From a virus, in the IMG/VR virus record IMGVR_UViG_3300025030_000222, positions 1 to 41,381 of that record: a stretch of 41,381 bases of DNA. One strand, written 5' to 3'. The notes below the pieces were generated by a model. That model was not told the origin of the DNA and did not search any database. It was given only the letters and a program-made list of their open reading frames with translations. How positions within the stretch are numbered: position 1 is the first letter of the stretch; each line of letters opens with the position of its first letter. Both the position numbers and the translations under genes were made by a program. Below are positions 2,100 through 41,381 of the stretch, piece after piece.

Positions 2100-2759
2100 T
2101 CAGACCATCACGCCACGGCGAGGAGTGATTCCGGCGGTTTGGATTTCAGGCCCTGATAGTTGGATTTTCCGCCGCACAACTTGGCCCATGTCGATCTTCA
2201 CATCTAACGTGGAGACCCTTCGTTGTACCTCCAAGCGATCAATCTGCTGAAGTTGCGCGCCCCCGATCAGTTCCTGAAGTGCCTCGCGGGTTTCCTTGGC
2301 AAGTACCGGGCAGTTGGCCAAGTTATCAAGCATTTCTAGCCCCCTCATTGAAAGGTCTTTGGCTCTTCCAAGAGGAAGCCGACCGAGTTGATTCTTGATT
2401 CGATCCACCCAGTCTGCTACGTCCACGGGGACTTCGGATTCGATGACGAACTCCGTTACGGTGACTCGAACATCTTCCCGCGTGGCCAACTCCGAAAGGA
2501 GTTTGGTACCGTCTCCGCTGCGATTGAGAATGAAGGTTCCGGGGATAGGTCCAGAGACGAACCTCTCCCGAAACTCCTTCCGAATACGGGCGTCTTCTGC
2601 CTGACGATCCTTCACTACCGACGCACTGTCAGCATTGATGAAATGAGTACCCAACCCTCGAATGATCTTTTCGGACTTGATGATGTCCAACCCCAGATCC
2701 TTGGGGCGGTTCTTCTCACTCTCGTGTTTGAACGAGATAGACAGATGGCCAATGTACAT
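2100..2759 (-). CDS. Conserved phage-type protein of unknown function
   Basis: 219 residues, start ATG preceded by GAAGGGA. Soluble, mixed alpha/beta, no membrane segment or signal peptide. Features seen: a charged N-terminal half (KDRQAEDARIRKEFRERF), then a probably helical middle, and a basic C terminus. No catalytic motif is evident and I do not recognise the family. It lies between the zinc-ribbon gene and the small acidic gene in the same leftward operon as the AAA+ ATPase, so a role as a partner in the ATPase cluster is possible but only inferred. Confidence 0.7.
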   Translation of the reverse strand: MYIGHLSISFKHESEKNRPKDLGLDIIKSEKIIRGLGTHFINADSASVVKDRQAEDARIRKEFRERFVSGPIPGTFILNRSGDGTKLLSELATREDVRVTVTEFVIESEVPVDVADWVDRIKNQLGRLPLGRAKDLSMRGLEMLDNLANCPVLAKETREALQELIGGAQLQQIDRLEVQRRVSTLDVKIDMGQVVRRKIQLSGPEIQTAGITPRRGVMV

Positions 2760-2785
2760 TTATTTCCCTTCTGTTATAGTAACCG

Positions 2786-3073
2786 TTACTTCTTTTTTAC
2801 GGCCCCTTTGCCTTTACAGGTGGGGCATACTACCAACGACTTCCCCGTCTGGACAGTTTTGGCAAAAGCTCTCCCAGTTGTTTCGTATCTACACATGAAA
2901 CAGACTACTTTATCGTCATCGTGTAGAGCGACACAGTGTTCGTATGAACCTTTGGGCGCCCCATAGGTCCAAAAGTCCCCAGCTTTGGCTCTGCACTTGG
3001 GACACTTGAACTCCTTGATCCGTGGTTGATATGTGGTGTGTTTCGTAGGACAAAAATGAATATGCTTACGCAT
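2786..3073 (-). CDS. Small zinc-ribbon protein
   Basis: 95 residues with three CxxC pairs: CPKC (near residue 24), CFMC (near 58) and CPTC followed by KGKG (near 83), a rubredoxin/DnaJ-like knuckle arrangement that should bind one or two zinc ions. The N terminus is basic and His-rich. Its start overlaps the end of the upstream gene by 8 bases (ATGCGTAA), so the two are probably translated together. Small zinc proteins are frequent in this arm; specific partner unknown. Confidence 0.7.
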   Translation of the reverse strand: MRKHIHFCPTKHTTYQPRIKEFKCPKCRAKAGDFWTYGAPKGSYEHCVALHDDDKVVCFMCRYETTGRAFAKTVQTGKSLVVCPTCKGKGAVKKK

Positions 3074-3263
3074 GGATGTGTGTCCCCTCTCCGTGGTGGT
3101 GATCTACTCCGGCAATGTGTCTTTCTTTTACTGTCCCTAGTGTTTTGGCCAGGGCCAGGGTCAAGTCCGCCAAACGATCCGCGTCCACCTTTTTGGTGAC
3201 GCCTTCGGGCAAACGAATCGTAGCTTCACCATCTCCTGAAAACTCGATTACGAATTTCTTCAT
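3066..3263 (-). CDS. DUF2997-like small protein with His-rich tail
   Basis: 65 residues; I chose the internal ATG at 3263 (MKKFVIEFSGDGEATI) because it has GGAGAAAA upstream and overlaps the preceding stop as ATGA. The beginning, a two-strand sheet of the form I-E-F-x-x-D-G-E, followed by a helix ending ALAKTLG and a V-K-E-R-H stretch, resembles DUF2997, a family found beside Ycf46-type AAA+ ATPases. The tail HIAGVDHHHGEGTHIHA is unusually histidine-rich and could bind metal. Assignment to DUF2997 is by eye and needs a profile search. Confidence 0.6.
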   Translation of the reverse strand: MKKFVIEFSGDGEATIRLPEGVTKKVDADRLADLTLALAKTLGTVKERHIAGVDHHHGEGTHIHA

Positions 3264-3400
3264 AGGATTTTCTCCAAGTATGTATGTTCGGTGGTGCCGA
3301 CGGCGCGAAACAGTGTGCAACACGAGTTACATACCATGTCTCCATCGTCACCATCCCAAAGGACGAGGCCGTCACAGTGTTCTATGGGGCATGGAATCAC
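3260..3400 (-). CDS. 46-residue Cys-rich (zinc finger) protein
   Basis: Found by hand: a GTG at 3400 overlaps the stop of the upstream gene (GTGA) and its own TGA overlaps the ATG of the next gene (ATGA), so it is coupled at both ends. The product contains CPIEHC near residue 4 and CNSCC near residue 24, a plausible single zinc-binding knuckle, with acidic residues between. No family recognised. It fills an otherwise unexplained 130-base gap exactly, which supports it being real. Confidence 0.6.
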   Translation of the reverse strand: MIPCPIEHCDGLVLWDGDDGDMVCNSCCTLFRAVGTTEHTYLEKIL

Positions 3401-6058: not shown

Positions 6059-7413
6059 AGGGTTTCCTCACCGATCATGTGTAGGTAGGCTTCGATGAAG
6101 TCTAGGTCCCCGTCGCACGATTTGCTAATCACGTCCATGGATGCTTCGGAGAGCTTCATGTTTTCATCTCGGAACTCCACGGTCAATTTTGGAGCTTTGT
6201 CGCATTGGGTACACCAAGTGGTATTCGCGTCTTGTAGTTTTTGTTTAAGCTGATTGTTGGCCCATGACCTTTCTTCTGCCAAGTAGCTCATAGTATCGAA
6301 GGGATCGACCCACCGTTTGTCACCACATTCGTGGGTGCGACTAGGGGGGAGATTCACTAGACTCCAGGTGTAGGTCCCAGCTTGCATGTTTACGGGCATA
6401 ATGACGGCCACGGAATCCGAACCCTTAAACACCAATGGGCCATCTGAATTGTTGAATTCAATATCCATGGACCCCCCGATGTCCAGAATGTCTATGAGAA
6501 AGTTGAGGTTATACGCCGCGAGGATTCGCCCAGTCGCAGTTGTCATCTCGGGCAACTGGGCAATCACGATGGGTCGTTCGGGTAGTTCACCCCCGCGTAT
6601 CTTAGCCCCTTCCGGGGTAATGAATAGTTCCCCGGTGGGGTTCCCATTAGACGATGAGAAACTAGGGTGTTTTTTCAGGTCGGCCAGCACCTTACTTACT
6701 TGAGCCGCGTCTGTTACAGTTCCCTGGATCTTAAATTGGGTAGGCACAACTCTGTGAACATCAGGGAATTCCCCGTCTAAACAACGGGTTTGCAATTGGA
6801 CTCCAGTAGCCGAAACACACAGTCCCACAGTGGTAGTTACTACCTTATCATTTTCTGTGACGGACTTGGTGATAAGCTGTAGCTCATCCAATCCGTACTT
6901 TATTGCTAGTTTACCTACCTGTGCGGGAATGATTGTCGTAGGATCTTGGAAGTCCTTTGACATAAACAGGTGCTTACCATCCGTACTGGCTACCCCTCCG
7001 GTATTCAGGTCTACGGCAATTCCTTGGAGGGCGTATCGCGATGGTTCCTTGGCAGGAAATCTCACGGCGTTACCCAGGTGGGTCATGCGTAGTTTTATCT
7101 TCTTAGACTCAGAAACTTCTGGCCAGACGGGAGTGGCATCCATTTGGACGACCTCAAGAGGAGCTGGTAGTGTGATCCCAAGAGTCTCGATGAGTAGTTT
7201 TCCCCCGTAGACTATCAGCGTACTTTTAGGCTTTAGAAACTTCGCCACGTTTTGTGGCAGAGCCCATGAACCTTCGATGTCCACGGAGATTTTCACCCAC
7301 GTCTCAAGATCCGTGGCGTAAAGAAACCCGTTGCTGATCCACAGGTAGTTAGTCCATTGGTTCTTCTTCCCCGCGACTGCACCTGCGAGGGCTAGTTTGG
7401 TTTTCCAGTTCAT
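6055..7413 (-). CDS. dnaN-like: Sliding clamp (DNA polymerase III beta-like) with C-terminal extension
   Basis: 452 residues. The first about 345 match the three-domain bacterial beta clamp: STDGKHLF (residues 143-150, equivalent to the ATDGHRL loop), DGEFPDVHRVVP (about 213-224), YNLNFLIDIL (301-310, equivalent to the strand before the protein-binding cleft) and the final IMP motif (338-340). The clamp encircles DNA and tethers the polymerase. Beyond it are about 105 extra residues with a CTQC pair and other cysteines, which ordinary clamps (about 370 residues) lack; this tail may bind zinc or a partner. SD TAGGAGA precedes the ATG. A phage-encoded beta-type clamp suggests its own replisome or capture of host polymerase. 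Confidence 0.85.
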   Translation of the reverse strand: MNWKTKLALAGAVAGKKNQWTNYLWISNGFLYATDLETWVKISVDIEGSWALPQNVAKFLKPKSTLIVYGGKLLIETLGITLPAPLEVVQMDATPVWPEVSESKKIKLRMTHLGNAVRFPAKEPSRYALQGIAVDLNTGGVASTDGKHLFMSKDFQDPTTIIPAQVGKLAIKYGLDELQLITKSVTENDKVVTTTVGLCVSATGVQLQTRCLDGEFPDVHRVVPTQFKIQGTVTDAAQVSKVLADLKKHPSFSSSNGNPTGELFITPEGAKIRGGELPERPIVIAQLPEMTTATGRILAAYNLNFLIDILDIGGSMDIEFNNSDGPLVFKGSDSVAVIMPVNMQAGTYTWSLVNLPPSRTHECGDKRWVDPFDTMSYLAEERSWANNQLKQKLQDANTTWCTQCDKAPKLTVEFRDENMKLSEASMDVISKSCDGDLDFIEAYLHMIGEETL

Positions 7414-7422
7414 CGAAGTCTC

Positions 7423-7479
7423 CTAGTTTATGAAAGTTTCAGCCGCCCTGATGGCGTTTCGATACGCTTGCCAACACAT
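7423..7479 (-). CDS. Possible leader peptide ahead of the clamp gene
   Basis: An 18-codon frame (MCWQAYRNAIRAAETFIN) whose stop lies inside the clamp ribosome-binding site. The same frame is open 12 codons further upstream with gene-like sequence (PNGFRWSPSL) but no start codon. It may be a translated short ORF coupled to the clamp or the remnant of a longer gene. Two other frames in this 97-base gap also give short peptides, so the call is weak. Confidence 0.3.
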   Translation of the reverse strand: MCWQAYRNAIRAAETFIN

Positions 7480-7510
7480 AAGGGATGGGCTCCATCTGAA
7501 CCCATTTGGT

Positions 7511-7954
7511 TTAAGTTAATGTAAGATTGTGAGCTGCGAGGACGGCGCGTATGAGCACCACGTCTCCCCATGTCAATCCTTGTAGGGGTTTAATGTTGTG
7601 GAGATCCCCATCCACAAGCTGTTCTGGTAGCATTTCGATGATGCTACATACGTCGAGAGCTAGAGTCTCGGTGCTTGAGAAGTATTTTAGTTTCTCAACG
7701 TAGGCCTCTGGCCTACCTTCGGGTCTCTTGTCCTGTATCTTATAGACAGCGCACCGTGCTACGCCGTCTTTTCCACCTGGGTGTCGGCACGCTTTTACAG
7801 CTCTGTTGAGGGCGACTCTTTCTTCCATGGTGAGGATGATCTTTACATCTGTGAGTAGCCCCCGTGAACGGATGCCTACAACGGCAAATGCCCGAGGGGT
7901 CCCAAGGCAATCTCGTACTATGACGGACGTGATGGAATATTTTGGTGCGTGCAT
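7511..7954 (-). CDS. Tandem paralog, copy 2 (unknown family)
   Basis: 147 residues from ATG 7954, which overlaps the stop of the upstream paralog (TGATG); a TTG at 7960 is an alternative. It aligns along its whole length with the upstream gene: T-S-V-I-V-R-D near the start, FAVVGI, DVKIILTME, GKDGVA, a KYF motif, and WGD near the end followed by AAHNLT. Function unknown; no catalytic motif stands out. The two are clearly a duplication that has since diverged. Confidence 0.75.
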   Translation of the reverse strand: MHAPKYSITSVIVRDCLGTPRAFAVVGIRSRGLLTDVKIILTMEERVALNRAVKACRHPGGKDGVARCAVYKIQDKRPEGRPEAYVEKLKYFSSTETLALDVCSIIEMLPEQLVDGDLHNIKPLQGLTWGDVVLIRAVLAAHNLTLT

Positions 7955-28455: not shown

Positions 28456-28946
28456 AGCAACTTCGCAGCATCACGGTGGATCGGGTGATGTCGTGGTCGC
28501 CGTGTCCAGACTGGAAACGCAAGCGGGTGGTGGACGCTTTCGGCGGTCGTAAGAGCATGACGCCATTGGAGGTCCTCTCGTTGGAGAACGTTGAACCACA
28601 GGATCGTCTTTGGGTAGTGTTGCGTGAGGAGATCATCCCCACGCGCGAGCTGCGACTGATCGCGTGTTGGTGTGCGAAGCGGGCGCTTGATCGTGAGCGA
28701 TCTGCTGGGCGCGAGCCTGACCCGCGGAGTTGGGATGCCGTTCGGGTAGCGAGGCGGCATGCGCACGGGCAAGCTACGGTGGAGGAACTTGTCGCCGCCT
28801 GGGACGCCTCCTGGGACGCCGCCAGGGACGCCGCCGGGGCCGCCGCCAGGGGCGCCGCCGGGGACGCCGCCGGGGACGCCGCCGAGTGCGAGAAAATCCT
28901 AGCGCATGTCCGGCGCGTGTTGAGGCGGCTGGAGGTCGAGGCATGA
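28452..28946 (+). CDS. Ala-rich repeat phage protein
   Basis: 164 residues, ATG coupled to the preceding frame (ATGA). CPDWKRKRVVDAFGGRKSMT and then PQDRLWVVLRE match a widespread phage family (CP.W...R....FGG...). The C-terminal half holds a DAA-type alanine repeat (DASWDAARDAAGAAARGAAG, then more) coded by GGACGCCGCC-like DNA repeats (28803-28887), which probably form a long helix. Function unknown. Confidence 0.7.
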   Translation: MKQLRSITVDRVMSWSPCPDWKRKRVVDAFGGRKSMTPLEVLSLENVEPQDRLWVVLREEIIPTRELRLIACWCAKRALDRERSAGREPDPRSWDAVRVARRHAHGQATVEELVAAWDASWDAARDAAGAAARGAAGDAAGDAAECEKILAHVRRVLRRLEVEA

Positions 28947-29368: not shown

Positions 29369-30277
29369 ATGAGTCATGTAGATAAAAAACAACTAGGATA
29401 TGTAGCCCCGTGCAATGTGGTGGATCATCCCAAGCACTACAACGCCCATCCTTCTGGTGTGGAGTGCATCGATGTGGTCGAGCACATGAGTTTCAATCTG
29501 GGGAATGCTGTGAAATATTTGTATAGAAGTCCGTATAAACACTCCGATCCAGTACTTGATTTACAGAAATCTCTCTGGTATATTAAAAGGGAGATTACTC
29601 GGAGATTAAAAAATGGAACGTTGGAGGATCTATCCCTTGGATCGGAGATATTGGGTGTCAAATATGGGGAAGGTGATGAACGCAGAAACACTGCGTGTTC
29701 GGAAGCAGGTGATGTTAAAGAACGGATACATGACCCTGACATTCCCCCCCATAAGAGACCTACAACATACTTGCAAAACCAACAAGGTGAAGTGCCGATA
29801 CGTTCACAGGATGGTGTTAGAGACTTGGGTGGGTCCATGCCTAGAGAATCAGGAGTCGTCTCATCTGAACGGGATTCGACAGGACAATCGGATTTCAAAT
29901 CTAAAGTACGAATCAAGGAAAGCGAATCACCAAAGAATGATCCAACACAAAACGGACTACAACGGGATACGAAATCCAGCGGCGAAGTTGGCATGGGCCT
30001 CAGTAGACACCATACGAGTGTCGGGAAAGTCCGAGGTTCAGTTAGCTACGACGTGGGGGGTATCCCGTGCGACTGTAGGACGAATAAAGAGAAACGAGAG
30101 TTGGAATCCAAAATACAGGCCGTAGTGGACGCAATGCCTTCTAGTCTCCTATCGAACAGCATTCGTTATCTGTTTTTATCGGACCTTTGTGGTCGATGTA
30201 CCGATAAAATAGGATCTATTGAAGACCTACAAAAAGCAGCGTGGTACTTGGCCCGAGAACTACAAAGGTTGTCGTGA
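29369..30277 (+). CDS. DUF3310 protein with duplicated half and dual-coded middle
   Basis: 302 residues. The first about 80 are DUF3310: VDHPKHYNAHPSGVECIDVVE then GNAVKYLYRSP and LDLQKSLWYIKREI. A second, divergent copy follows at about 250-300 (NSIRYLFLSDLC, then IEDLQKAAWYLARELQ). Between them, about residues 90-240 are hydrophilic, low-complexity and lie over the HNH endonuclease gene in another frame. So the long frame keeps two domain copies with the homing gene between them. DUF3310 is of unknown role in phages, often near nucleotide genes. The middle is probably not meaningful protein. Confidence 0.75.
   Translation: MSHVDKKQLGYVAPCNVVDHPKHYNAHPSGVECIDVVEHMSFNLGNAVKYLYRSPYKHSDPVLDLQKSLWYIKREITRRLKNGTLEDLSLGSEILGVKYGEGDERRNTACSEAGDVKERIHDPDIPPHKRPTTYLQNQQGEVPIRSQDGVRDLGGSMPRESGVVSSERDSTGQSDFKSKVRIKESESPKNDPTQNGLQRDTKSSGEVGMGLSRHHTSVGKVRGSVSYDVGGIPCDCRTNKEKRELESKIQAVVDAMPSSLLSNSIRYLFLSDLCGRCTDKIGSIEDLQKAAWYLARELQRLS
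29613..30125 (+). CDS. HNH homing endonuclease (NUMOD4-HNH-HTH) inside the DUF3310 frame
   Basis: 170 residues in a different frame from the DUF3310 gene. NUMOD4-like start (WRIYPLDRRYWVSNMGKV), HNH core VHRM, then S-H-L-N-G, DNRISNLKY (about residues 65-105) and a C-terminal helix-turn-helix (LATTWGVSRATVGRIKRN, about 140-158), as in free-standing homing endonucleases. Catalytic His are present. It overlaps the middle of the 302-residue frame completely. This is expected to cut DNA of related phages lacking it. No intron-sized RNA flank is present. Confidence 0.85.
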   Translation: MERWRIYPLDRRYWVSNMGKVMNAETLRVRKQVMLKNGYMTLTFPPIRDLQHTCKTNKVKCRYVHRMVLETWVGPCLENQESSHLNGIRQDNRISNLKYESRKANHQRMIQHKTDYNGIRNPAAKLAWASVDTIRVSGKSEVQLATTWGVSRATVGRIKRNESWNPKYRP

Positions 30278-31690: not shown

Positions 31691-32341
31691 ATGGATTTAG
31701 AACGTCTTCACGAAGTGCAAGCTGACCAGCTTGCGTTACTTATTTCCAGAGGAAACACTCCTCAAGATGCAGGGCGCAAGCTAAGGTTCAATCGTAAACA
31801 CGTCAAAAAGCTACTTGGTATTCTTCGTGACCGTGCGGAGATGCCGGCGGTTGATCCTCATACAGCCTTTGCAGCCTACACCGCACATACCTCCCCAAGT
31901 GTACAGAGATTGAAGAAACTCTTGGACACTACCGATAGACTCGAAGCCGTGGACCCGGAGTTCGACACTGAGGTTACGGATACTGAAGAGTCTTATGAGG
32001 AATCGGGGGATGGAACTCGACCTATCAAGCGGGTCCGTAAAACCGTGAAGGCTGCTTATCGTGGTGGGTTGAATCCTGCTTTACGCCTTCAAGCCATGCG
32101 AGATTTGGCAGAGCATGCCAAGACTTGGATCGACATCGCGATTCAACTTGGAGTAGTTCAAACTCTCAAACCTCAACCCGCACAAACTCACGCGCACCTG
32201 CACCTGAATAAGATCGACGTGGACATGCAGCAAGTCCTCATTCAAGCTGTTCAGTCAGGGGACACCAGTGCTCTTGAGGCCCTGGCGCGTGGCGAAGCCC
32301 CTAAAGGAACAGTAGACCCACCAACACCGGAGGTAAAGTGA
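31691..32341 (+). CDS. terS-like: Terminase small subunit-like protein
   Basis: 216 residues. N-terminal helix-turn-helix-like segment (LISRGNTPQDAGRKLRFNRK, about 17-36), a helical middle, and a charged C-terminal tail. Position directly upstream of the large terminase and the DNA-binding N terminus suggest the small subunit, which recognises phage DNA ends and recruits the large subunit. The sequence match is not strong, so the call is contextual. Its end overlaps the next gene (GTGA). Confidence 0.5.
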   Translation: MDLERLHEVQADQLALLISRGNTPQDAGRKLRFNRKHVKKLLGILRDRAEMPAVDPHTAFAAYTAHTSPSVQRLKKLLDTTDRLEAVDPEFDTEVTDTEESYEESGDGTRPIKRVRKTVKAAYRGGLNPALRLQAMRDLAEHAKTWIDIAIQLGVVQTLKPQPAQTHAHLHLNKIDVDMQQVLIQAVQSGDTSALEALARGEAPKGTVDPPTPEVK

Positions 32342-32520
32342 CGAGCGACCACCAACTTTTTGCTATTCAGATTGAAGACATTATTCACAGTTTGAAAACT
32401 ACTACAGTGGACATCCCTCAACAGGCACGCCTGAATAGACTCCGGGCTGTACAGGATCAGATCAGCAGGTTGTGTCAGGCGCTTATGGCCTCGCTGCCTA
32501 GAGATGTCGTGTCGAAATAG
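32338..32520 (+). CDS. Unknown small protein of the packaging cluster
   Basis: 60 residues, GTG 32338 overlapping the previous stop (GTGA). Helical (HQLFAIQIEDIIHSLK). The end overlaps the next gene by one base. Function unknown. Confidence 0.55.
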   Translation: MTSDHQLFAIQIEDIIHSLKTTTVDIPQQARLNRLRAVQDQISRLCQALMASLPRDVVSK

Positions 32521-33353
32521 TGTCATCCCAGATTCAAGCTATAGCTCAGGCTCTTCTGAAAGAGTCCGACCCTCACGTCAGGCGTCGGATGATGGAAACC
32601 AGTAGTCGAGCGATCTACCTACCTCCGATCAAAGAGTTCATTACCTCACCCAACTATGCCAACTCCAAACTATGGCCGGCAGTAGCTAGGTTGCTTGAAC
32701 TCATCGACGATCCCAGGGTGAGAGAGTTCTATTTGGAACTAGCCAAAGGCAGCGGGAAATCGAGTGGGGCTGCGGCAGGTGTAGTCTACGCCGCTGCCAG
32801 ATTAGCAGCCCTCAAAGACCCCCATGAATACTTCGACATTGGAAAAATCAAACCCATTACATGCCTTACCTGTAGCACCAGCGAAACACAAGCAATCCAA
32901 ACCATCTTCGCGCAAGTGAAGTCTTGGGTCCGACAGAATCCATTTTTCATCGCGGCTCACCGTATGTGTGCCGAACGAGCGGAATTCCCTTTTAGTCCTG
33001 ATGATCCCAAGTATCCAGCGTACAAGATTCACACTACGGCCATCACAATCAGGCACTCTCCCGTATTCCCAGATGGACAGATTCAGATTCTCTGTGGTCA
33101 CGCCAAGAGTGAGGGCATGGACGGACATGATGTGTTCATGGCCATCATTGACGAGTCCAACAAACATGGACTATCGGAGGAATCCCCCCAAGCACAGAAG
33201 TTGGAGACTACTTTCAGGACCAGCGGATTCACCAGGTTTCCTAGCGATTACAAACTTGGGCTCATATCGAGTTCGGTATCTAAGCAGAGCCATTTGCGGA
33301 AAGAGGTAGACCGAATCTTCTCGGCCTCTCCCCCCCAGCTATTGTTTCATTGA
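32520..33353 (+). CDS. terL-N: Terminase large subunit, ATPase half (split gene)
   Basis: 277 residues from GTG 32520. Walker A ELAKGSGKSSG (GSGKS 77-81), motif CLTCST (about 115-120), Walker B VFMAIIDES (205-213, D211-E212) and the coupling motif region LGLISSSVSKQ (about 250). This is the complete motor domain but the frame stops after PPQLLFH, at the point where the nuclease lobe normally continues (GPTWE.NP). The matching nuclease lobe is 2.8 kb downstream at 36165. This may be a split gene producing two peptides, or two exons. A promoter starts at the last codons. Confidence 0.85.
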   Translation: MSSQIQAIAQALLKESDPHVRRRMMETSSRAIYLPPIKEFITSPNYANSKLWPAVARLLELIDDPRVREFYLELAKGSGKSSGAAAGVVYAAARLAALKDPHEYFDIGKIKPITCLTCSTSETQAIQTIFAQVKSWVRQNPFFIAAHRMCAERAEFPFSPDDPKYPAYKIHTTAITIRHSPVFPDGQIQILCGHAKSEGMDGHDVFMAIIDESNKHGLSEESPQAQKLETTFRTSGFTRFPSDYKLGLISSSVSKQSHLRKEVDRIFSASPPQLLFH

Positions 33354-33378
33354 CATCTATTAGATCGCGTGGTAGGAT
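33350..33378 (+). promoter_or_regulatory. Strong promoter with operator inside the split terminase
   Basis: TTGACA (33350-33355), 17-base spacer, -10 TAGGAT (33373-33378). CATCTATTAGAT (33354-33365) covers the end of the -35 and the spacer. The GTG at 33385 is six bases beyond the -10, at the predicted start, suggesting a leaderless transcript. Best -35 in the window. Confidence 0.8.
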
Positions 33379-33384
33379 GGATTT

Positions 33385-33597
33385 GTGACTGAGTTTCATC
33401 ATAAAGCGGTCCGACCTTTGGAGCATGGGTGGGTTCCTGTTCGTGATAGGGACAGAGGAAACCGCTACGACGAGGCTTCGGAGTCTAGCCCAGATCGAGA
33501 CTGGAAAGACCGGATGATTCCCATCTATGCTAGGCGGATGGAAAAAATCATAGATCGTTACGGAGTGGACATCCCGGCTTCTAACCGATTGGTGTGA
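33385..33597 (+). CDS. Unknown small protein, leaderless
   Basis: 70 residues from GTG 33385. Charged (HGWVPVRDRDRGNRYDEASE), soluble. No SD; the start coincides with the expected transcription start. No family recognised. First gene of the insert between the two terminase halves. Confidence 0.6.
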   Translation: MTEFHHKAVRPLEHGWVPVRDRDRGNRYDEASESSPDRDWKDRMIPIYARRMEKIIDRYGVDIPASNRLV

Positions 33598-33601
33598 ATT
33601 C

Positions 33602-33829
33602 GTGCAGACAATCCCTATAAAACTAGCGTTTCATGATTGGGTACGCGACGGGAAGAGTATTTACTCCACAGAGGAAGGCATTGAACTCAGCCTTGGAGAT
33701 TTTCATTCAGGAACAGTTTTCAATGGTGCTATTTGTTTGGACGACAACGGCATCCAAGAGATCCAGCGGGCAATTGCCCGGAAGGAGTACCCAACGTTCT
33801 TGATATTCTCACTTACGGTAAATCCGTAG
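33602..33829 (+). CDS. Conserved phage protein (FHDWVRDGKSIY family)
   Basis: 75 residues from GTG 33602. HDWVRDGKSIYSTEEGIELS followed by LGDFHSGTVFNGAI is a pattern I recognise from many phage and bacterial proteins without known role. Compact beta-rich fold. SD poor. Confidence 0.65.
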   Translation: MQTIPIKLAFHDWVRDGKSIYSTEEGIELSLGDFHSGTVFNGAICLDDNGIQEIQRAIARKEYPTFLIFSLTVNP

Positions 33830-33846
33830 GCTTACACTAGAAGCCT

Positions 33847-34449
33847 ATGTCGATGGATAATTCAGAGCGCAAAGCTCCTACGGGATTCATCGGTAACGTA
33901 AAGAGCAGAGACAAGATGGATCTGGGTTGGCAAACCCCACCCGAGCTTCTCTACCCTGTGGCTACGTACTTCGGGGGACAAATACCTTTCGATGTGTGTA
34001 CGACGAAGGACAACCCCGTCAATGCAGCAGAGTTCTGGACTCCTGATGTTAACGCCCTGAACTGCATCTGGCCCGGCAGTTGTTTTTGTAACCCACCGTA
34101 CGGGAAATCCATGAGAGCGTGGGTTGAGAAAGCGGTGGAACAATCATCCAGTGGTACTGAGATCATTCTTTTGTTATCCGCGGCTAGGTGGGAACAAGGG
34201 TGGTGGCAGGAGTTCATCTCGAAGGCTCGCCATGTATGCTTCATCCGAGGTCGGGTGAGTTTCATTCGCCCAGGTACTGGTGATCGGGTAAGTGGAAATA
34301 CTTATGCGAACATGTTTGTCGGCCTGGGTATTCGACGACAAGATGATTGGGTCGAGGCTTTCAAACAAGTAGGGCTCTGCATGTATTGGTCTTCATTGAA
34401 TGATGTTCCAACCCATACGGCTTATCAACAGTACCTTAAGAGAAGTTGA
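33847..34449 (+). CDS. Phage N6-adenine methyltransferase (Dam, PF05869-like)
   Basis: 200 residues. W-x-TPPELL (28-34), the conserved FDVCTT (48-53), AAEFWTPDVNAL and motif IV CNPPYG (81-86) define the phage Dam-like family. It methylates adenine, probably shielding phage DNA from host restriction. Moderate SD. The end overlaps the glycosyltransferase start by four bases. Confidence 0.88.
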   Translation: MSMDNSERKAPTGFIGNVKSRDKMDLGWQTPPELLYPVATYFGGQIPFDVCTTKDNPVNAAEFWTPDVNALNCIWPGSCFCNPPYGKSMRAWVEKAVEQSSSGTEIILLLSAARWEQGWWQEFISKARHVCFIRGRVSFIRPGTGDRVSGNTYANMFVGLGIRRQDDWVEAFKQVGLCMYWSSLNDVPTHTAYQQYLKRS

Positions 34450-35237
34450 TGAACATTTGTCTAGTGTGCGTGACCTACAACGGTCAAGACCGGGTGTCTC
34501 GAATGCTAAGGTCTCTACCCAACCCCAATTTGGCTGAGAAGTATCTGGACGGGGGGCCTGACCATATCGTGGTGTATTCAGATGGAGCAAACCCACCCTG
34601 CTTGGACTCATTAGAGATATCATACAAACTACGCTGTATAGACGGTGGGGATAACCGCGGAGTAGTTGAAGCCTACAATCGAGTCCTAGTAGGGTTCTCT
34701 CATAAGATTTCGTTCTTCAGGGACTTCATCGATGAAGCCTGGATACTTTTGGTAGACGATGATGTCGTGTTACCACCCAAGTTCTTCTATGTTCTCAGAA
34801 CTCTCATCTCTACTCTTGGAGATTGCGTGTTGTCGTGGAAGAGCACAACTAACCCGCCTGAAGTCCGTGGTGTAATAGAACTCGCAACCGAACTGGCGGG
34901 CTATACCTTTGCGTTTCCGTACAAATTCTTCTCACAACTAGATTTGGGGGGTAAAGGAGCATTTGATAGCGAAAACTTCCATCACTACTGCGGGGACTCC
35001 GACTTCGCCCGTAGAGTTATGCGCGATCTACATCGCCCGTGTTATCGGGTACACTATCCCCTGGTGATCCATGAGGAGCACGCAGCGGTAAGGGATAATC
35101 CCGAACTATTAGGCTCTGAGTGGGCAGTCCAAGATCGATGGAACTACAAAAAGAAGTGGGCCGACGTGAAAGAACGGGATCTTATCCGGTCCTTGCTAAA
35201 CGGAACATTACTGGACCAGAAAGAAGGTAGTCTATGA
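34446..35237 (+). CDS. Glycosyltransferase (GT2-like)
   Basis: 263 residues. NICLVCVTYNGQDRV starts a GT-A fold; GDNRGVVEAYNR (67-78) contacts nucleotide sugar; LLVDDDVV (100-107, DXD-type metal site); HHYCGDSDFARRVM and a later H-E-E-H. Could glycosylate hypermodified bases, virion protein or the host surface. With the Dam gene it makes a DNA-modification pair, which is suggestive but not proof. Coupled to the next gene (ATGA). Confidence 0.8.
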   Translation: MMNICLVCVTYNGQDRVSRMLRSLPNPNLAEKYLDGGPDHIVVYSDGANPPCLDSLEISYKLRCIDGGDNRGVVEAYNRVLVGFSHKISFFRDFIDEAWILLVDDDVVLPPKFFYVLRTLISTLGDCVLSWKSTTNPPEVRGVIELATELAGYTFAFPYKFFSQLDLGGKGAFDSENFHHYCGDSDFARRVMRDLHRPCYRVHYPLVIHEEHAAVRDNPELLGSEWAVQDRWNYKKKWADVKERDLIRSLLNGTLLDQKEGSL

Positions 35238-35431
35238 GCGACGGCAAGTATTCGTTGGATCAAGTTATGTCTGTGCTTGGATACGGACTCAACAAGTCCA
35301 CTGACCTGTACGAACAGATTGGATTATCTCGAATACCAGTTGGGACTAAACTCATATCGAGGGAAGTCATTGAAGACATTCTGGGTGCTACCTCTTCAAA
35401 TCCGATTGGTGTAGTAAGGACATTTGATTGA
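35234..35431 (+). CDS. Small HTH-like DNA-binding protein
   Basis: 65 residues, coupled start (ATGA). YSLDQVMSVLGYGLNKSTDLYEQ with a later VGTKLISREVIEDIL resembles a MerR/excisionase-type winged helix fold (Y-S..QV..., first helix pair, then beta hairpin and last helix). Candidate regulator within the insert. No specific family. Confidence 0.5.
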   Translation: MSDGKYSLDQVMSVLGYGLNKSTDLYEQIGLSRIPVGTKLISREVIEDILGATSSNPIGVVRTFD

Positions 35432-35655
35432 GTCGAAATGTTTATCTTTGGGATCAAGCGGTACGCGCTACGACCAATCGCGCTCTTGCGGGCTCGTGGT
35501 ATAAAGGTGCCCTAGCATACCTAACTAACGCAGCTAACCCATACCGGCGCGAACGCGAGACCAGCGGAGGAAATACTACATTTGCTAGAGCGTCCTGTCG
35601 TGCTTGGGAGAACGGGTACGCATTTGCAAATAAGCATCCTAGGACCAATAATTAA
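35428..35655 (+). CDS. Unknown small protein
   Basis: 75 residues from TTG 35428 overlapping the previous stop (TTGA). Pattern NPYRRERETSGGNTTFARAS then W-E-N-G-Y looks like a short phage family. Function unknown. Confidence 0.55.
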   Translation: MSRNVYLWDQAVRATTNRALAGSWYKGALAYLTNAANPYRRERETSGGNTTFARASCRAWENGYAFANKHPRTNN

Positions 35656-35766
35656 AACAGGTGCATATTTTGTGATAGCCCGCTAAGTAGTCAGATGAAA
35701 ACATTGCAAAGGATTATGGGTTAACGGTAAAAGAACTCCGTAAGCAGAGATGCAAAATACCTTAAC
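35656..35766 (+). other. Gap with possible HTH remnant
   Basis: No full gene. One frame (35690-35763 region) reads NIAKDYGLTVKELRKQRCKIP without a start codon, similar in style to the helix-turn-helix at 23737 (SLARDYGLS). Perhaps a decayed small gene. Confidence 0.3.
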
Positions 35767-36042
35767 ATGTTGTGTTTGAAATCCGCTCAAGTAGGTCAGG
35801 ATCTACCATCCTTCGTCATACCTGTCCCGTCAGAGCTATACGATAGTATTGTGGGCAGGAGATCGTTTTTCATAGGAGTACTACGGGACATTGCCAAGCA
35901 CTGTGGTGAAACTGTTTTCCCGATGATATTTGAATGTCCCAAAGGTTGCCGGGCAGTCATAGAGTCCCCCGACTCAATTCCCATCGATGACGTAAAGTGT
36001 CTACATGGGATATTCATCAGATTCGATCCTTTGGAGGGGTAA
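35767..36042 (+). CDS. Unknown small protein
   Basis: 91 residues, ATG 35767 without strong SD. FVIPVPSELYDSIVGRRSFF and later CPKGCRAVIESPD; a Cys pair is present. No family. Confidence 0.5.
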   Translation: MLCLKSAQVGQDLPSFVIPVPSELYDSIVGRRSFFIGVLRDIAKHCGETVFPMIFECPKGCRAVIESPDSIPIDDVKCLHGIFIRFDPLEG

Positions 36043-36043
36043 C

Positions 36044-36235
36044 ATGCTTCATGATCTCGCCAAGATTATAGAAGACGCTGTTCGTGCTGGTGCTGCTTAC
36101 GGAGATAAACGCGGTCGGCCAGGTCCCCACACGGAAACTTTCGAGGATGGGCTGTTGAAGGTCATTGATCGGGTGCGTGAACGATATATGGTGCAGCCTG
36201 CGCCTGGCATGGAATACGTCCATCGAAACGGTTGA
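36044..36235 (+). CDS. Unknown small protein, overlaps terminase nuclease half
   Basis: 63 residues from ATG 36044 with GGAGGGG upstream. Helical MLHDLAKIIEDAVRAGAAYG, then GRPGPH; a short phage family. It overlaps the start of the nuclease half in another frame, and could provide translational coupling for it. Confidence 0.55.
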   Translation: MLHDLAKIIEDAVRAGAAYGDKRGRPGPHTETFEDGLLKVIDRVRERYMVQPAPGMEYVHRNG

Positions 36236-37259
36236 CGTAGATCCAGAAACTCCTGCTACGTCTCTGAAACCGGAGTGGTTTTCGTCCAGGTACGCTATCC
36301 ACGAAGGTCGATTAGCTGTAACCGGACCCTTGTGGGAATTCAACCCCAGGTTCACTTGGGATCTGTTTCTAACTGCGTATCGACGTAATCCGGTAGAGGC
36401 GTTAATCAACCTAGCCAGTTACCCACCTACGAAGTCCAGGATCAAGTTCTACACAGACATCGAGCGGGTACGAATGTTGGTGGACAAGTCTCGCAAAGGA
36501 CACCCTATCAGGGAGGATTTGTCCTTTGAGAATTGGTTTCGTCCGAGACCTATGGCTAGTTACACGATGCACTTTGACTTGTCGGAGGTAAAAGACCCTA
36601 CGGCATGTGCCTTGGCTCATTGGTGTCATCAGTCCCAGCGGGTGTACCTAGACTTCGCATTGGAGATCCAACCCACTCCTGGAAACCCAGTACGCCTGAA
36701 GTCGATGGAGAATTTAGTACTGGCTCTTTTGGACCGGGGGTTTGACATCAGACAGGTCACTATGGACCTTTGGGGTTCTGCTGCGCTCAGACAAACTTTG
36801 GAGTCTCGTGGAATTGTAGCTATGCAGTACTCCGTAGATAGAACCACGGAAGCACATGAGACTCTGCATCATGCGATACACACGGGTCTGTTGAGTTTTT
36901 ATCCCTACGAACCCCTCCTTGTTTGTTTGGATGACCTGTACTGGTCAAAGGGTGGGCGAAAGATCGACCATAGACCAGGTGGTAAGAAAGACGTAGCTGA
37001 CGCGGCCGCGGGTGCGGTGCTGTGGGCTCTCAAACTTGAAGGGTTCAAAGAAGTCCCAGACATCGAAGTCCTATCTCTGGAAAGAACCCCGTCAGACGAC
37101 GAAGACCTAACTAATGACGACCTCTTGGAACTTCGCCCTATCCCCAAAACGTCAAGAAAACCAGGGGAGAACCCAGAAGGCGATGAATACTACGTCGAAG
37201 GGGACGACATGGATGAAGTCGATACCCTCGATGAAGACGATGACGGCTTGGCATACTGA
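36165..37259 (+). CDS. terL-C: Terminase large subunit, nuclease half (split gene)
   Basis: About 364 residues from TTG 36165 (GTG 36177 is also possible; no strong site). TGPLWEFNPR (53-62) is the motor/nuclease junction motif; the RNase H-like nuclease has HFDLSEVKD (136-144, D138 and D144), MDLWG (200-204, D201) and KKDVADA (274-280, D276 and D279). It ends in an acidic tail (DMDEVDTLDEDD). The region before GPLWE (about 50 residues) has no equivalent at the end of the ATPase half, so it may be a new N terminus. The two halves match one gene in order and motif content. Confidence 0.85.
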   Translation: MIGCVNDIWCSLRLAWNTSIETVDVDPETPATSLKPEWFSSRYAIHEGRLAVTGPLWEFNPRFTWDLFLTAYRRNPVEALINLASYPPTKSRIKFYTDIERVRMLVDKSRKGHPIREDLSFENWFRPRPMASYTMHFDLSEVKDPTACALAHWCHQSQRVYLDFALEIQPTPGNPVRLKSMENLVLALLDRGFDIRQVTMDLWGSAALRQTLESRGIVAMQYSVDRTTEAHETLHHAIHTGLLSFYPYEPLLVCLDDLYWSKGGRKIDHRPGGKKDVADAAAGAVLWALKLEGFKEVPDIEVLSLERTPSDDEDLTNDDLLELRPIPKTSRKPGENPEGDEYYVEGDDMDEVDTLDEDDDGLAY

Positions 37260-37288
37260 CTACCAGAAGAAAGTGATGAGGTAGTAAC

Positions 37289-37864
37289 GTGCGTGTCCTA
37301 GTTGCCTGTGAGTTTTCCGGCGTCGTCAGGGAGGCGTTTCGTCGGCGTGGTCACGACGCTTGGTCCTGCGATCTACTCCCGTCCGACATTCCGAGCGGGC
37401 AACATTTCGAGATGGACGTGCGAATGCTATTGCAGGGACCGCACGTTTGGGACTTGATGATTGCCCATCCACCATGTACCCATTTGGCCGTGTCTGGGGC
37501 TCGCTGGTTCAAAGAGAAACGAACTTTACAGGCCGAAGCCCTTGACTTCGTGCGAATACTATTAGATGCTCATATCCCGAGAATCGCGGTTGAGAACCCG
37601 GTTAGCATCATCAGCAGCCATATACGGAAGCCCGATCAAATCGTGCAGCCGTTCCACTTTGGCGATCCGTTTAGGAAAACGACATGCCTATGGTTGAAGG
37701 GCCTACCGTTGCTTAAACCGACGAACGATCTTGGAACTGGTGAGCAGGCGTGTTGGCAGGAATCGCCGCGCCCTGACCGTTGGAAGCGGCGAAGCCGCAC
37801 ATATTCAGGTTTCGCAGAGGCGATGGCCGAGCAATGGGGGGCTGATTTGGTAGGTGCGGGGTAG
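37289..37864 (+). CDS. C5-methyltransferase-like protein
   Basis: 191 residues from GTG 37289, SD GAGG. VACEFSGVVREAFRRRGHDA (motif I region), CDLLPSD, LMIAHPPCTHLAVSGARWF (motif IV-like with PC) and IAVENPVS (motif VI-like ENP) match the short phage C5-methylase-like family. Such proteins are often called DNA cytosine methyltransferase, but many lack the target-recognition part, and this one is short. An operator-like ACTATTAGATG occurs within the gene (37559-37569) but no promoter is attached. Confidence 0.7.
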   Translation: MRVLVACEFSGVVREAFRRRGHDAWSCDLLPSDIPSGQHFEMDVRMLLQGPHVWDLMIAHPPCTHLAVSGARWFKEKRTLQAEALDFVRILLDAHIPRIAVENPVSIISSHIRKPDQIVQPFHFGDPFRKTTCLWLKGLPLLKPTNDLGTGEQACWQESPRPDRWKRRSRTYSGFAEAMAEQWGADLVGAG

Positions 37865-37874
37865 GTGGTAGGAT
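37846..37874 (+). promoter_or_regulatory. Putative promoter without operator
   Basis: -35 TTTGGT (37846-37851), 17-base spacer, -10 TAGGAT (37869-37874), six bases before ATG 37881. Same -10 and start spacing as at 33350, but no CATCTATTAGAT sequence. Overlaps the preceding gene end. Confidence 0.5.
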
Positions 37875-37880
37875 ACCCCT

Positions 37881-37991
37881 ATGTGGGACGTGGCTTTGGG
37901 CGTAGTGTTTGTCGTTCTGATGATCTTTCTATGCCGTAGCGTAGGCAACGAATTGCGCAGAATTCATCATAGACGAAAACGCAGGCGGTAG
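37881..37991 (+). CDS. 36-residue single-pass membrane peptide
   Basis: Found by hand: ATG 37881, MWDVALGVVFVVLMIFLCR then a basic tail (HHRRKRRR). About 18 hydrophobic residues then positive residues gives a membrane segment with cytoplasmic tail. The ATG is six bases past a -10, so it may be leaderless. Function unknown; small phage membrane peptides can be holin-like or immunity factors. Confidence 0.5.
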   Translation: MWDVALGVVFVVLMIFLCRSVGNELRRIHHRRKRRR

Positions 37992-38034
37992 TTTTTACCT
38001 TGGATACTTTGTCCCTCGCCCCTAGACTTGGGGC

Positions 38035-39450
38035 ATGGGATTATGGCAGAGAGTTTTAAGTCTCTTCAAAAGTACATCGGACGACTTCCCGCCCGAGGCG
38101 TTCACCTTGGGTGGAGACGTAGACACACGTACCCAAGGCATGGCCGGTGTGGTCATGCGTACTATCTGGAGTTACGTAGCAATCCGAACGATTGTCAACA
38201 ACGCTCGGTCGATACCGATCACACCGCAGGTTATGACCAAGAGTGGTAACTACGTAGAGGTTGATACCGAAGATCCGTTGTATAAGTTGGTCTCTGATCC
38301 CAGTCCGTTTCAGATGTGGGATGACTTCATGGAGGCCACGATCTGTTACCTCAAGATATTTGGGGACGTTCCTATCCACGTACAACGGACTGGAGACGTG
38401 CCCACATCGTTTTATCCCATGAGGCCGGACCTCACAACCCTACAGGCATCCAAAGACAAAATCGTAGCAGGGTGGGAATTCGACCGCGGTGCTGGGCGGC
38501 CGGAACTATTCAAACCTACAGATATTGTGATGGTCCGAGAGTTCAACCCGGAACATCCGATTCGAGGGTATTCGTCTAGTCGAGCCGCGCAACAGAGTTT
38601 GTTAGCGGATTTTCACGCGGCAAAGTACAACGTCAGATTTTTCAGTAACCACGCTTTACCTGGGGTAGTTCTGCAGACAGAACAGAAGCTACCTGCAACC
38701 GTGCGTCGCCGACTGCGTGCAAACATGCGAGCGGCATTTGGTGGTAGCGACAAAGCTCACGGTCTGGCCATTCTCTCCAAGGGACTAAACATCAAAACCG
38801 TAACTCCTAGTCATAGGGACATGGATTTCGGTAACTTGATGCACGACGCAATGACCCGCACCCTGTTAGCCTTTGGTGTTCCGCCCGGAGTAGTGGGTAT
38901 CACGGCAGATTTGACGAACTCCAATCTACAAGAGCAGCGTCACTTGTTCCTGGTGAACACCCTTCAGCCCACTGTAGAAAACATCTTACAGAAGCTGAAC
39001 AGATTCATCTTCAACCCCATCGGCATGCGGCTCAAGCCCAACTTCGAGGGGGTGTTGATAAGTGCGCAGACTCTCCACGACCGCAAGATGGAACATCGCG
39101 GTATTTGGCGAGACGGTCTTATCACCAGAGACGAAGCACGAACAGCCCTTGGATTTCCCGTAATGGGGGGAACTGTTGGTGCAGAGCTATTTCCGATTAC
39201 GGCTAGTAAAGTAGCTAACCCTAGTCCCGAGCTAGGAGATACTCTGAACACCGAGGACCGTTTCACAGACAATCCCGACACAGGAGTAGATCCTACCCCT
39301 GCAAGTGTTGCTGACGATCCTACCGGGACTATCAAAACAGAGGACTGTCCAAGAATTCCCTTGCCTAATAGACTACCGTTCCAGTATTTCAATAAGCCAC
39401 AGAACGGCACCATGCCGCCTATACCGTCTTTTCAGTGGGCCTCAAGATGA
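38035..39450 (+). CDS. Portal protein (HK97-type)
   Basis: 471 residues. Typical HK97 portal: TIWSYVAIRTIVNNARSIP near residue 43, YLKIFGDVPI, AQQSLLADFHAAKYNVRFFS then HALPGVVLQTEQKL near 210, and LLAFGVPPGVVG near 285. It forms the dodecameric DNA channel at the head vertex. Ends with an acidic, Pro/Thr-rich tail. A GCCCC/GGGGC hairpin stands just before the start and there is no clean SD. Coupled to the next gene (ATGA). Confidence 0.9.
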   Translation: MGLWQRVLSLFKSTSDDFPPEAFTLGGDVDTRTQGMAGVVMRTIWSYVAIRTIVNNARSIPITPQVMTKSGNYVEVDTEDPLYKLVSDPSPFQMWDDFMEATICYLKIFGDVPIHVQRTGDVPTSFYPMRPDLTTLQASKDKIVAGWEFDRGAGRPELFKPTDIVMVREFNPEHPIRGYSSSRAAQQSLLADFHAAKYNVRFFSNHALPGVVLQTEQKLPATVRRRLRANMRAAFGGSDKAHGLAILSKGLNIKTVTPSHRDMDFGNLMHDAMTRTLLAFGVPPGVVGITADLTNSNLQEQRHLFLVNTLQPTVENILQKLNRFIFNPIGMRLKPNFEGVLISAQTLHDRKMEHRGIWRDGLITRDEARTALGFPVMGGTVGAELFPITASKVANPSPELGDTLNTEDRFTDNPDTGVDPTPASVADDPTGTIKTEDCPRIPLPNRLPFQYFNKPQNGTMPPIPSFQWASR

Positions 39451-41381
39451 ATAAATCCGTAGTACCGTTCAAGAGCTACCCACTAACACCCAAGGGCGCA
39501 TGGACATGGGATAGCAAAGTTCAAAACGCTATCATCAAGGTCGGGGGTTGGGGCCTGTACAAACAAGCCCATGCCTGGGCAAACGCAGAATCCCCCAATA
39601 TCAAGTCGTCGTACAAACTTCCTCACCACGAGATAATTGGTGGGGAACTATTTACAAAGTGGTCAGGTGTGAAAGCTGCTATGGGCGCCCTTCTAGGCGC
39701 CCGCGGGGGCACAGATATCCCCAGTGCCGACAAACAGACAGTCTATAACCACTTGGTAAAACACTACAAGGAGTTCGATAAGACTCCTCCAGAGTTCAAG
39801 AAGCACATTCTGATTGAGGCAGTATTCAAAACTCTAACTCATCTTGCCGATGGAGCCCTAGAAGTCGAAACTCCCTGGGGAAAATCCACCGTCGAGACCT
39901 GTTTCATGGACGGAGAAGTCGAAGACGGATCACTCGTATCCGTGGAACTCATTATTCCAGAAGATGGATCTCTGGAGAAATCTTTGACTTCCACGGATTT
40001 ATCTACCACAATGTCTTTTGCACAGGGGGAATCGGTAGTAGACGAAGTGTCAACTACTGAGACCCTACAAGGCGATGTGGAATCGGAGTTGTCTAAAATG
40101 CGTCGAGGTCCGAAACCGTCTGACAATGCTTTGGTAGCTTCTGCTAAGGAGTCTACGGACGGTGTTGTTGTTCTCTTGGGTAGGGCGTTGGGCGCTCGCC
40201 ACGATAAGCATCGGACTATTGCTTTTGACAGCCGTATGGACGAAACCCAGCGCGAGCATGTAGCTAGGAGTTTGGCGTGGGATGTTCCGGCTGCGCGTAA
40301 AGCCGCGGGTGGATTCATTTTGGACATCCATGAAGACCATACGTTTGCCGCCGACACATTTTATGTTCTCGATCCGGTCAAAGAGAGCGTGTTCTGTTCT
40401 GAGGACCCAGACCCAAAGACCAACGCCCAATCCAAGGACCCCGCCTCAGAACTAGACATGGCAGTCAAATCAGACACCAAGACCTTTTTTGTCGAGTTCA
40501 AGAAGGTTCTATCGGTTCCTGGAAAGGACATGATTATCCGTTCGGTGGCTTATCCCTCCGACCGGATCGATGCTCATGGGGAGTATGCTTCGTTTGCGGA
40601 TCTTGAGAAGGCGGCACACGAATTCAACATTCACTTCCGCGAGATCAACATCGAGCACACCGACCGCGAAGCGCCTGGGACTGCTGTGGCGGAGTCCTAT
40701 ATGGCCCGCAGCGCAGATGCGGAGATATCCGCGGACAAAGGTGATTGGTGTGTAGTTTTGCGGGTCAGCGACGAAGACACGAAGTCGGAAATTGCCGCGG
40801 GAGTATACAAGGGGCTGTCCATTCAAGGACGGTGCAAGAAACAACCTGGGATCTGCAAGGGCCAATCGGCTGTGCAGCTTACAGGGGTTACGATCAACAA
40901 GATATCTCTGGTTGAGAATCCGGCAACCAGACTCGCCTTTGTGGCGAAGAGAAAAGAAAGCGTCGGCCTACGCCCGGATACCGAGGCCGTTAAGAAAGGA
41001 CTGGTCATGGAAGAGTTGAAGAAACTCCTGGATCTTGTCCAGACGGCCACGGTCGATCTTGGTCGTCTGGTGAAGGCAGAGATTCCGGTGCAGGTGCCGG
41101 AGTTCCCATTCCAAGCGTCGGAAGGACCTGATGCCGCCAAGTCGTACATGATGCGATTGCAGATGTCGTTCTTGGCGAAGTTCTTGGGGAACATCAAGAC
41201 GAGTGTGGAGAACATCCAGAAGCAAGCGACTGATGCGGGCAAAGAGATTGAAACCCTTACGGGGCAGGTCTCGGAGAAGTCCGAACAGCTCGGCGCTTTG
41301 GGAGAACTCTGTCGCGAATACGAACGTCACCCCGACATCGATGCCATCCGCCAGATGATCATCGGCGAGAAAGCTCCCGCC
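39447..41381 (+). CDS. Prohead protease fusion protein, partial
   Basis: At least 645 residues, open to the window end (translated by hand). Residues about 1-120 contain SSYKLPHHEIIGGELFTKW, GARGG, then YNHLVKHYKEFDKTPPEF, an N-terminal module also found on other phage protease/head proteins. From about 362: MIIRSVAYPSDRIDAHGEYA, HTDREAPGTAVAESYM, LSIQGRCKK and SLVENPAT fit the XkdF-like (U35_2) prohead protease. The tail (about 515-645) is a charged coiled coil, as in scaffold segments. It probably also contributes scaffold. Start overlaps the portal stop. Confidence 0.8.
   Translation, partial: MNKSVVPFKSYPLTPKGAWTWDSKVQNAIIKVGGWGLYKQAHAWANAESPNIKSSYKLPHHEIIGGELFTKWSGVKAAMGALLGARGGTDIPSADKQTVYNHLVKHYKEFDKTPPEFKKHILIEAVFKTLTHLADGALEVETPWGKSTVETCFMDGEVEDGSLVSVELIIPEDGSLEKSLTSTDLSTTMSFAQGESVVDEVSTTETLQGDVESELSKMRRGPKPSDNALVASAKESTDGVVVLLGRALGARHDKHRTIAFDSRMDETQREHVARSLAWDVPAARKAAGGFILDIHEDHTFAADTFYVLDPVKESVFCSEDPDPKTNAQSKDPASELDMAVKSDTKTFFVEFKKVLSVPGKDMIIRSVAYPSDRIDAHGEYASFADLEKAAHEFNIHFREINIEHTDREAPGTAVAESYMARSADAEISADKGDWCVVLRVSDEDTKSEIAAGVYKGLSIQGRCKKQPGICKGQSAVQLTGVTINKISLVENPATRLAFVAKRKESVGLRPDTEAVKKGLVMEELKKLLDLVQTATVDLGRLVKAEIPVQVPEFPFQASEGPDAAKSYMMRLQMSFLAKFLGNIKTSVENIQKQATDAGKEIETLTGQVSEKSEQLGALGELCREYERHPDIDAIRQMIIGEKAPA

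Follow-up and report, generated by a model that had tools for sequence, protein, structure and literature searches.

Does a phage whose large terminase (TerL) is encoded in two genes make a working two-chain enzyme, rejoin the halves at the RNA level, or carry a broken gene? This question is raised by the window, a 41,381-nt record of an uncultured phage (IMG/VR record IMGVR_UViG_3300025030_000222) that is itself enclosed in an IMG/VR record of 89,268 nt (the 89-kb record). In the window, the ATPase and nuclease halves of terL are separated by 2.8 kb containing eight open reading frames (ORFs), all on the same strand. An original prediction made from the sequence described this arrangement as a terminase split by an accessory module with its own promoter, and suggested that the two proteins might reassemble or that the RNA could be spliced. 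We favor, with a probability of roughly 85%, an inherited two-chain TerL that reassembles noncovalently and whose intergenic slot gathers accessory genes.

Two ORFs encode complementary parts of a large terminase

To delimit the two halves, we used a hidden Markov model (HMM) of intact TerL proteins, for which 66 relatives were combined with six reference phages. The ATPase half (chain 1) matches positions 79 to 253 of this model (E 3e-26), and the nuclease half (chain 2) matches positions 296 to 577 (E 2e-47), in agreement with the coordinates and motif assignments of the original prediction. Chain 1 has an ASCE ATPase core with the Walker A motif GSGKS and the catalytic glutamate, GSGKS and DE being invariant. 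It ends in SPPQLLFH, followed by a TGA stop. Chain 2, whose ORF is open from 36159 to 37259, has an RNase H-like nuclease in which the three catalytic acids (D138, D201, and D276) are invariant. Its GPLWEFNP segment, proposed earlier as the motif following the break, is the counterpart of TWE.NP, the next motif in order in intact TerLs. The window thus has both domains of a TerL, in two ORFs 2.8 kb apart rather than on one polypeptide. With regard to a split intein, neither chain matches an intein family, and chain 1 stops directly after the extein-like sequence.

A second, full-length terL elsewhere in the genome would have given the split a different meaning. No second TerL was found in the window or in the 89-kb record, which is classed as linear and may be incomplete. 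In the latter, the HMM identifies exactly two TerL ORFs, with complementary coverage (79–253 and 296–577), and searches with phrog_9 return a single place in each of the two records.

An assembly artifact or chimera would be in keeping with a split that is carried only by metagenome or uncultured-phage contigs, but it is refuted by the agreement among contigs. The whole region is colinear in the 89-kb record, which contains both junctions; over 16.8 kb, window and record differ by no mismatch and by one 11-nt indel near 28,932, far from the split. The right junction is also included in a third contig, from a different metagenome, which covers 34481 to 41364 (6,884 nt) and differs there by 2 mismatches. 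Together with the identical break in relatives (see below), this leaves an artifact with a practically negligible chance. The 11-nt indel sits in an alanine-rich repeat, and a further 46-nt indel distinguishes the window from the 89-kb record at 7471–7516.

The break maps to the lid region of the ATPase domain

We modeled each chain (mean predicted local distance difference test score 76 for chain 1 and 73 for chain 2). A sequence search of the PDB with the half profiles gave no terminase match, and the break was located by fold comparison. Chain 1 matches the folds of the T4, P74-26, and HK97 terminases with Z scores of 16 to 18, its residues 31 to 277 aligning to residues 107 to 312 of T4 gp17 (Z 16.4) and to residues 4 to 218 of P74-26 (Z 17.7). 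Chain 2 matches G20c, HK97, and T4 with Z scores of 15 to 17; its residues 93 to 293 align to T4 gp17 361 to 561 (Z 15.5), and the G20c nuclease gives a Z of 17. These alignments place the break at about T4 gp17 312/313, which we take to be approximately where NsubI gives way to the C-terminal portion of NsubII, the lid. As modeled, the break is inside the ATPase domain, and the remaining lid (approximately T4 313–360), the hinge, and the nuclease (from T4 361) are all on chain 2. Intact relatives differ in the length of the linker at the break, and all conserved segments are still present. The equivalent part of the D6E lid contains Y213, a residue in contact with the P-loop arginine (PMC5727402).

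Diverged relatives are split at the same site with different cargo

Searches with profiles of each half recovered relatives, whose contig loci are denoted by L-numbers. Relatives with an intact gene, the search for which had been proposed as a check, do exist: at 198 loci both TerL halves lie in one ORF. The two best ATPase-half matches, L118 and L119, are both split at the site seen in the window, and the same break is present in six uncultured-phage contigs from IMG/VR that form three sequence groups (L119; L118, L215, and L216; L214 and L217). In L118, L119, L214, and the window, the break comes after the coupling motif and before the TWE.NP motif; the window is 26 to 28% identical to its same-site relatives. 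The nuclease chains of all four share a similar N-terminal extension (SLxPExx..Y), and in each the nuclease start codon overlaps the preceding ORF. The genome contigs yielded no confirmed relative of the ATPase half.

The gaps between the halves of these relatives measure 718 nt (L119), 205 nt (L118), and 186 nt (L214); their contents differ, and none holds a large module. That of L119 has two ORFs, one of which (6133–6492) has IF2_N and FlgM (anti-sigma-28) matches. L118 and L214 each have one conserved ORF of 71 to 73 aa, which overlaps or abuts both halves. Between these two ORFs, synonymous differences are saturated (pS 0.82) and nonsynonymous differences are few (pN 0.16); the gap is therefore protein-coding and has no space for an intron. 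For L118 versus L119, the ratio of nonsynonymous to synonymous substitution rates is 0.13 in the ATPase chain and 0.19 in the nuclease chain. Both halves are under purifying selection in the relatives.

Since the relatives share the split with different or almost no cargo, the break is probably older than the present cargo of the window, and it was probably inherited from an ancestor. The halves do lie 2.8 kb apart, as the original prediction stated, but a role of the module as the origin of the split is doubtful given relatives that are split with other cargo. In a phylogeny of 64 TerLs, the four that are split at this site fall on one side of a branch. The support of 13 and the very long branch of the window make this compatible with one origin of the break or with several.

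Other unusual terL loci came to light in these searches. At L197, a nuclease-only TerL ORF (2293–3273) precedes a portal-like gene. The contig extends for 2.2 kb on the upstream side of this ORF and contains no ATPase half there; the locus is possibly another split TerL. The TerL genes of L052 (1920–4814) and L006 (1–3500) have intein-like insertions, one of them in the P-loop of L052.

A probable two-chain terminase and points against it

In the arrangement that we favor, the large terminase would be made as two separately translated proteins. Chain 1 would supply the nucleotide-binding ATPase core, and chain 2 the RuvC/RNase H-like nuclease, the hinge, and the C-terminal portion of the lid, or transmission subdomain. 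This portion of the lid would dock on chain 1 and complete the ATPase domain, whereas the path from lid through hinge to nuclease would remain covalent. The slot between the two genes would tolerate accessory genes, in this case eight ORFs and an operator-promoter. The suggestion that two proteins reassemble is well supported by the intact halves, the same break, and purifying selection in diverged relatives. These observations, like the retained catalytic residues and the position of the break, are shown by the sequences, and from them we infer physical assembly and packaging activity. The split TerL is real and heritable, and it probably functions as two chains. More tentatively, a lid composed of two polypeptides might require that ATP-driven force cross a noncovalent joint, and the operator-promoter might set the amount of the nuclease chain independently of the ATPase chain.

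Several points weigh against this reading. The TerL of the window is on a very long branch, and its immediate lineage yielded no diverged member, which limits the measurement of selection to the distant relatives. Chain 2 lacks a strong ribosome-binding site at its start, and we assume that its translation is coupled to the overlapping 63-aa ORF. When T4 gp17 is split at its linker, ATPase and nuclease activities are kept but translocation is abolished (PMC3012670); by analogy, a split TerL would not be tolerated automatically. The T4 cut is at a different site, however, and the window keeps lid, hinge, and nuclease covalently linked.

The intervening genes and their predicted regulation

The features of the locus are collected in Table 1. 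The earlier count of eight intervening genes holds for ORFs, although most of these are without known families. The Dam methyltransferase assignment is solid, whereas the glycosyltransferase named with it is weaker (19.4 bits versus a cut-off of 27 bits) and is considered probable. Four insert ORFs were searched against phage records, and Dam was the only one with convincing relatives; the glycosyltransferase ORF has a distant paralog in the 89-kb record. ORF-free space in the insert amounts to one 111-nt gap and three gaps of at most 31 nt. None of the HNH, GIY-YIG, and LAGLIDADG families is represented among the eight ORFs, that is, no homing endonuclease of the mobE type was recognized. A comparison of the two junctions for shared direct or inverted repeats found no common word of length 8 or above, the mean expected by chance being 6.9. 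A likeness of the form TTGAC...AGATC between the left junction and 36231 was discarded, as the frames differ.

Table 1. Features in and around the split terL locus of the window
Feature	Coordinates	Strand	Evidence or remark
Probable small terminase	31691..32341	+	Position directly 5′ of terL; HTH_23 E 0.005 (below cut-off)
TerL chain 1, ATPase core (NsubI) without C-terminal lid part	32520..33353	+	GTG start, 277 aa
Predicted sigma-70-like promoter TTGACA-17-TAGGAT	33350..33378	+	Exact pattern, 0.01 expected by chance
Operator-like palindrome ATCTATTAGAT	33355..33365	.	Inside promoter spacer
ORF, 70 aa	33385..33597	+	
ORF, 75 aa	33602..33829	+	
Dam-like DNA N6-adenine methyltransferase	33847..34449	+	PF05869 E 3e-26; phrog_111 E 3e-36
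Probable GT2 glycosyltransferase	34446..35237	+	PF13641 E 0.0012, below cut-off
ORF, 65 aa	35234..35431	+	
ORF, 75 aa	35428..35655	+	
ORF, 91 aa	35767..36042	+	
ORF, 63 aa, GGAGGGG ribosome-binding site	36044..36235	+	Overlaps nuclease-chain start
TerL chain 2, C-terminal lid part, hinge, and RNase H-like nuclease	36165..37259	+	Start TTG 36165 or GTG 36177
Second DNA methyltransferase, between terL and portal	37289..37864	+	phrog_757 E 9e-67
Portal protein	38035..39450	+	PF04860 E 6.5e-52

The operator-promoter placed by the original prediction at the end of the ATPase half is present as a sequence element: the TGA stop codon of chain 1 sits within the −35 box of TTGACA-17-TAGGAT. Its activity as a promoter is predicted from the consensus match. 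The operator motif ATCTAWTAGAT has seven copies in the window (19174, 19621, 19644, 22830, 25595, 25948, and 33355), including upstream of thyX, and some of these are in tandem, 23 nt apart. Palindrome copies at 25590 and 25943 also bear a TTGACA box, and the operator-promoter of the insert is of the same type as the one preceding thyX. With up to three mismatches, TTGACATCTAWTAGAT occurs 10 times versus 0.56 expected. The ATCTAWTAGAT sites likely constitute an operator regulon. The promoter together with the recurring palindrome suggests that the accessory genes belong to a phage regulon, which would probably be early or middle and allow them to be expressed separately from the late genes.

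Other observations concern the surroundings of the locus. The ORF directly upstream of terL has no PHROG match, and its identity as a small terminase is probable mainly from synteny. The ORF 29369–30277 begins with a DUF3310 domain and ends with another DUF3310-like stretch; it encloses, in a different frame, the shorter ORF of a NUMOD4/HNH homing endonuclease (29613–30125), a possible homing-endonuclease insertion. In the 89-kb record (L109–L113, reverse complement of 84613–86948), inspection of the translation by eye shows a TnpB/OrfB-like ORF and another glycosyltransferase-like ORF among head genes; that record has several additional glycosyltransferase-like ORFs.

Alternative explanations for the split

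The RNA splicing suggested by the original prediction would require a self-splicing intron carrying eight ORFs. There is a precedent in the Jug phages, in which terL is likewise in pieces; there, group I introns split the gene and splicing was seen in metatranscriptomes (PMC12363816), unlike in the window, where Rfam searches of 32500–37300 returned no group I or group II intron at E ≤ 5 (general models may miss divergent subtypes). Neither the whole window nor the relatives gave a group I or II match in Rfam, and in L118 and L214 one conserved protein gene takes up the entire gap (205 and 186 nt), overlapping or abutting the two TerL halves. The window insert is nearly filled by ORFs, and the break lies in a nonconserved linker, unlike the P-loop insertion of L052. 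We therefore regard splicing as very unlikely. A similarly low probability applies to a recent mobile accessory module that disrupted terL and left the phage defective. Such an event could account for an ATPase stop codon that forms part of the module promoter, and mobile elements are present in the genome (the HNH gene at 29613–30125 and the TnpB-like ORF of the 89-kb record). Near-identical genomes in three assemblies argue against a defective phage, as do the intact active sites, the absence of any loss of a conserved segment from either domain, and the diverged phages that share the break with different contents. Moreover, no endonuclease or transposase was recognized among the ORFs of the module, and a search of its flanks revealed no repeat in common.

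It is also conceivable, if highly improbable, that the chains have separate functions, with chain 1 (or a host or helper protein) packaging DNA and chain 2 acting as a free, separately expressed cutting nuclease. The T4 domains retain their own activities when split (PMC3012670), and a separate promoter is predicted between the two genes; yet chain 2 retains the lid segment that completes the ATPase, which would be superfluous for a free nuclease.

Comparison with other terminases and phage enzymes in pieces

The coupling of ATPase and nuclease domains in viral packaging motors is debated. TerLs that are naturally broken at particular loops of the lid, as they are in several lineages, reveal where evolution permits a cut, and they provide ready tests of whether the lid-hinge-nuclease link, rather than the core-lid link, must be covalent. 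Such phages will be misjudged by pipelines whose marker is a single full-length TerL. Two-gene TerLs are already known from annotations; the window adds a new TerL family, a new break site, and a module with predicted regulation.

Reassembly of split phage enzymes is documented for the ribonucleotide reductase NrdA of Aeh1 and the DNA polymerase gp43A/B of phage 25 (PMC2988022). As in the window, an essential enzyme is split by intervening DNA in these T4-like genes in pieces (nrdA by mobE in Aeh1). They are active as two chains (PMC2988022), and their insert is a homing endonuclease, of which none was recognized in the window insert.

The Arthrobacter cluster AT isolates KellEzio, Kitkat, BeatusComedenti, and DanielleIgnace have an annotated two-gene TerL. 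As in the window, their ATPase and nuclease genes are separated by unrelated genes, in cluster AT three to six in number, and the portal gene comes afterward (PMC5513430); in KellEzio, five genes separate gp4 (ATPase) from gp10 (nuclease), and three lie between the halves in DanielleIgnace. KellEzio gp4 and gp10 have no HMM match to the window TerL family at E ≤ 10. The cluster AT break is further downstream, in a different loop, after the RRYAAEFHP strand, and the cargo differs (RusA and others). Cluster AY Arthrobacter phages (BlueShadow) are also reported to have TerL as two ORFs, ATPase and nuclease, but these are the adjacent genes 2 and 3, with no cargo reported (PMC12820723). In the uncultured phages L233 to L235, TerL is likewise divided between two ORFs; a DnaQ-like exonuclease gene and a DUF4031 gene lie between them, and the break is later in the lid than that of the window. 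Placing L233 to L235 in one clade with the other split TerLs was rejected (approximately unbiased test, p-AU 0.0036, with long branches as a caveat). The cluster AT isolates, with the cluster AY reports, indicate that a two-gene TerL is compatible with plaque formation, and in every two-gene TerL whose sequence was examined, the window included, the break is in the lid region.

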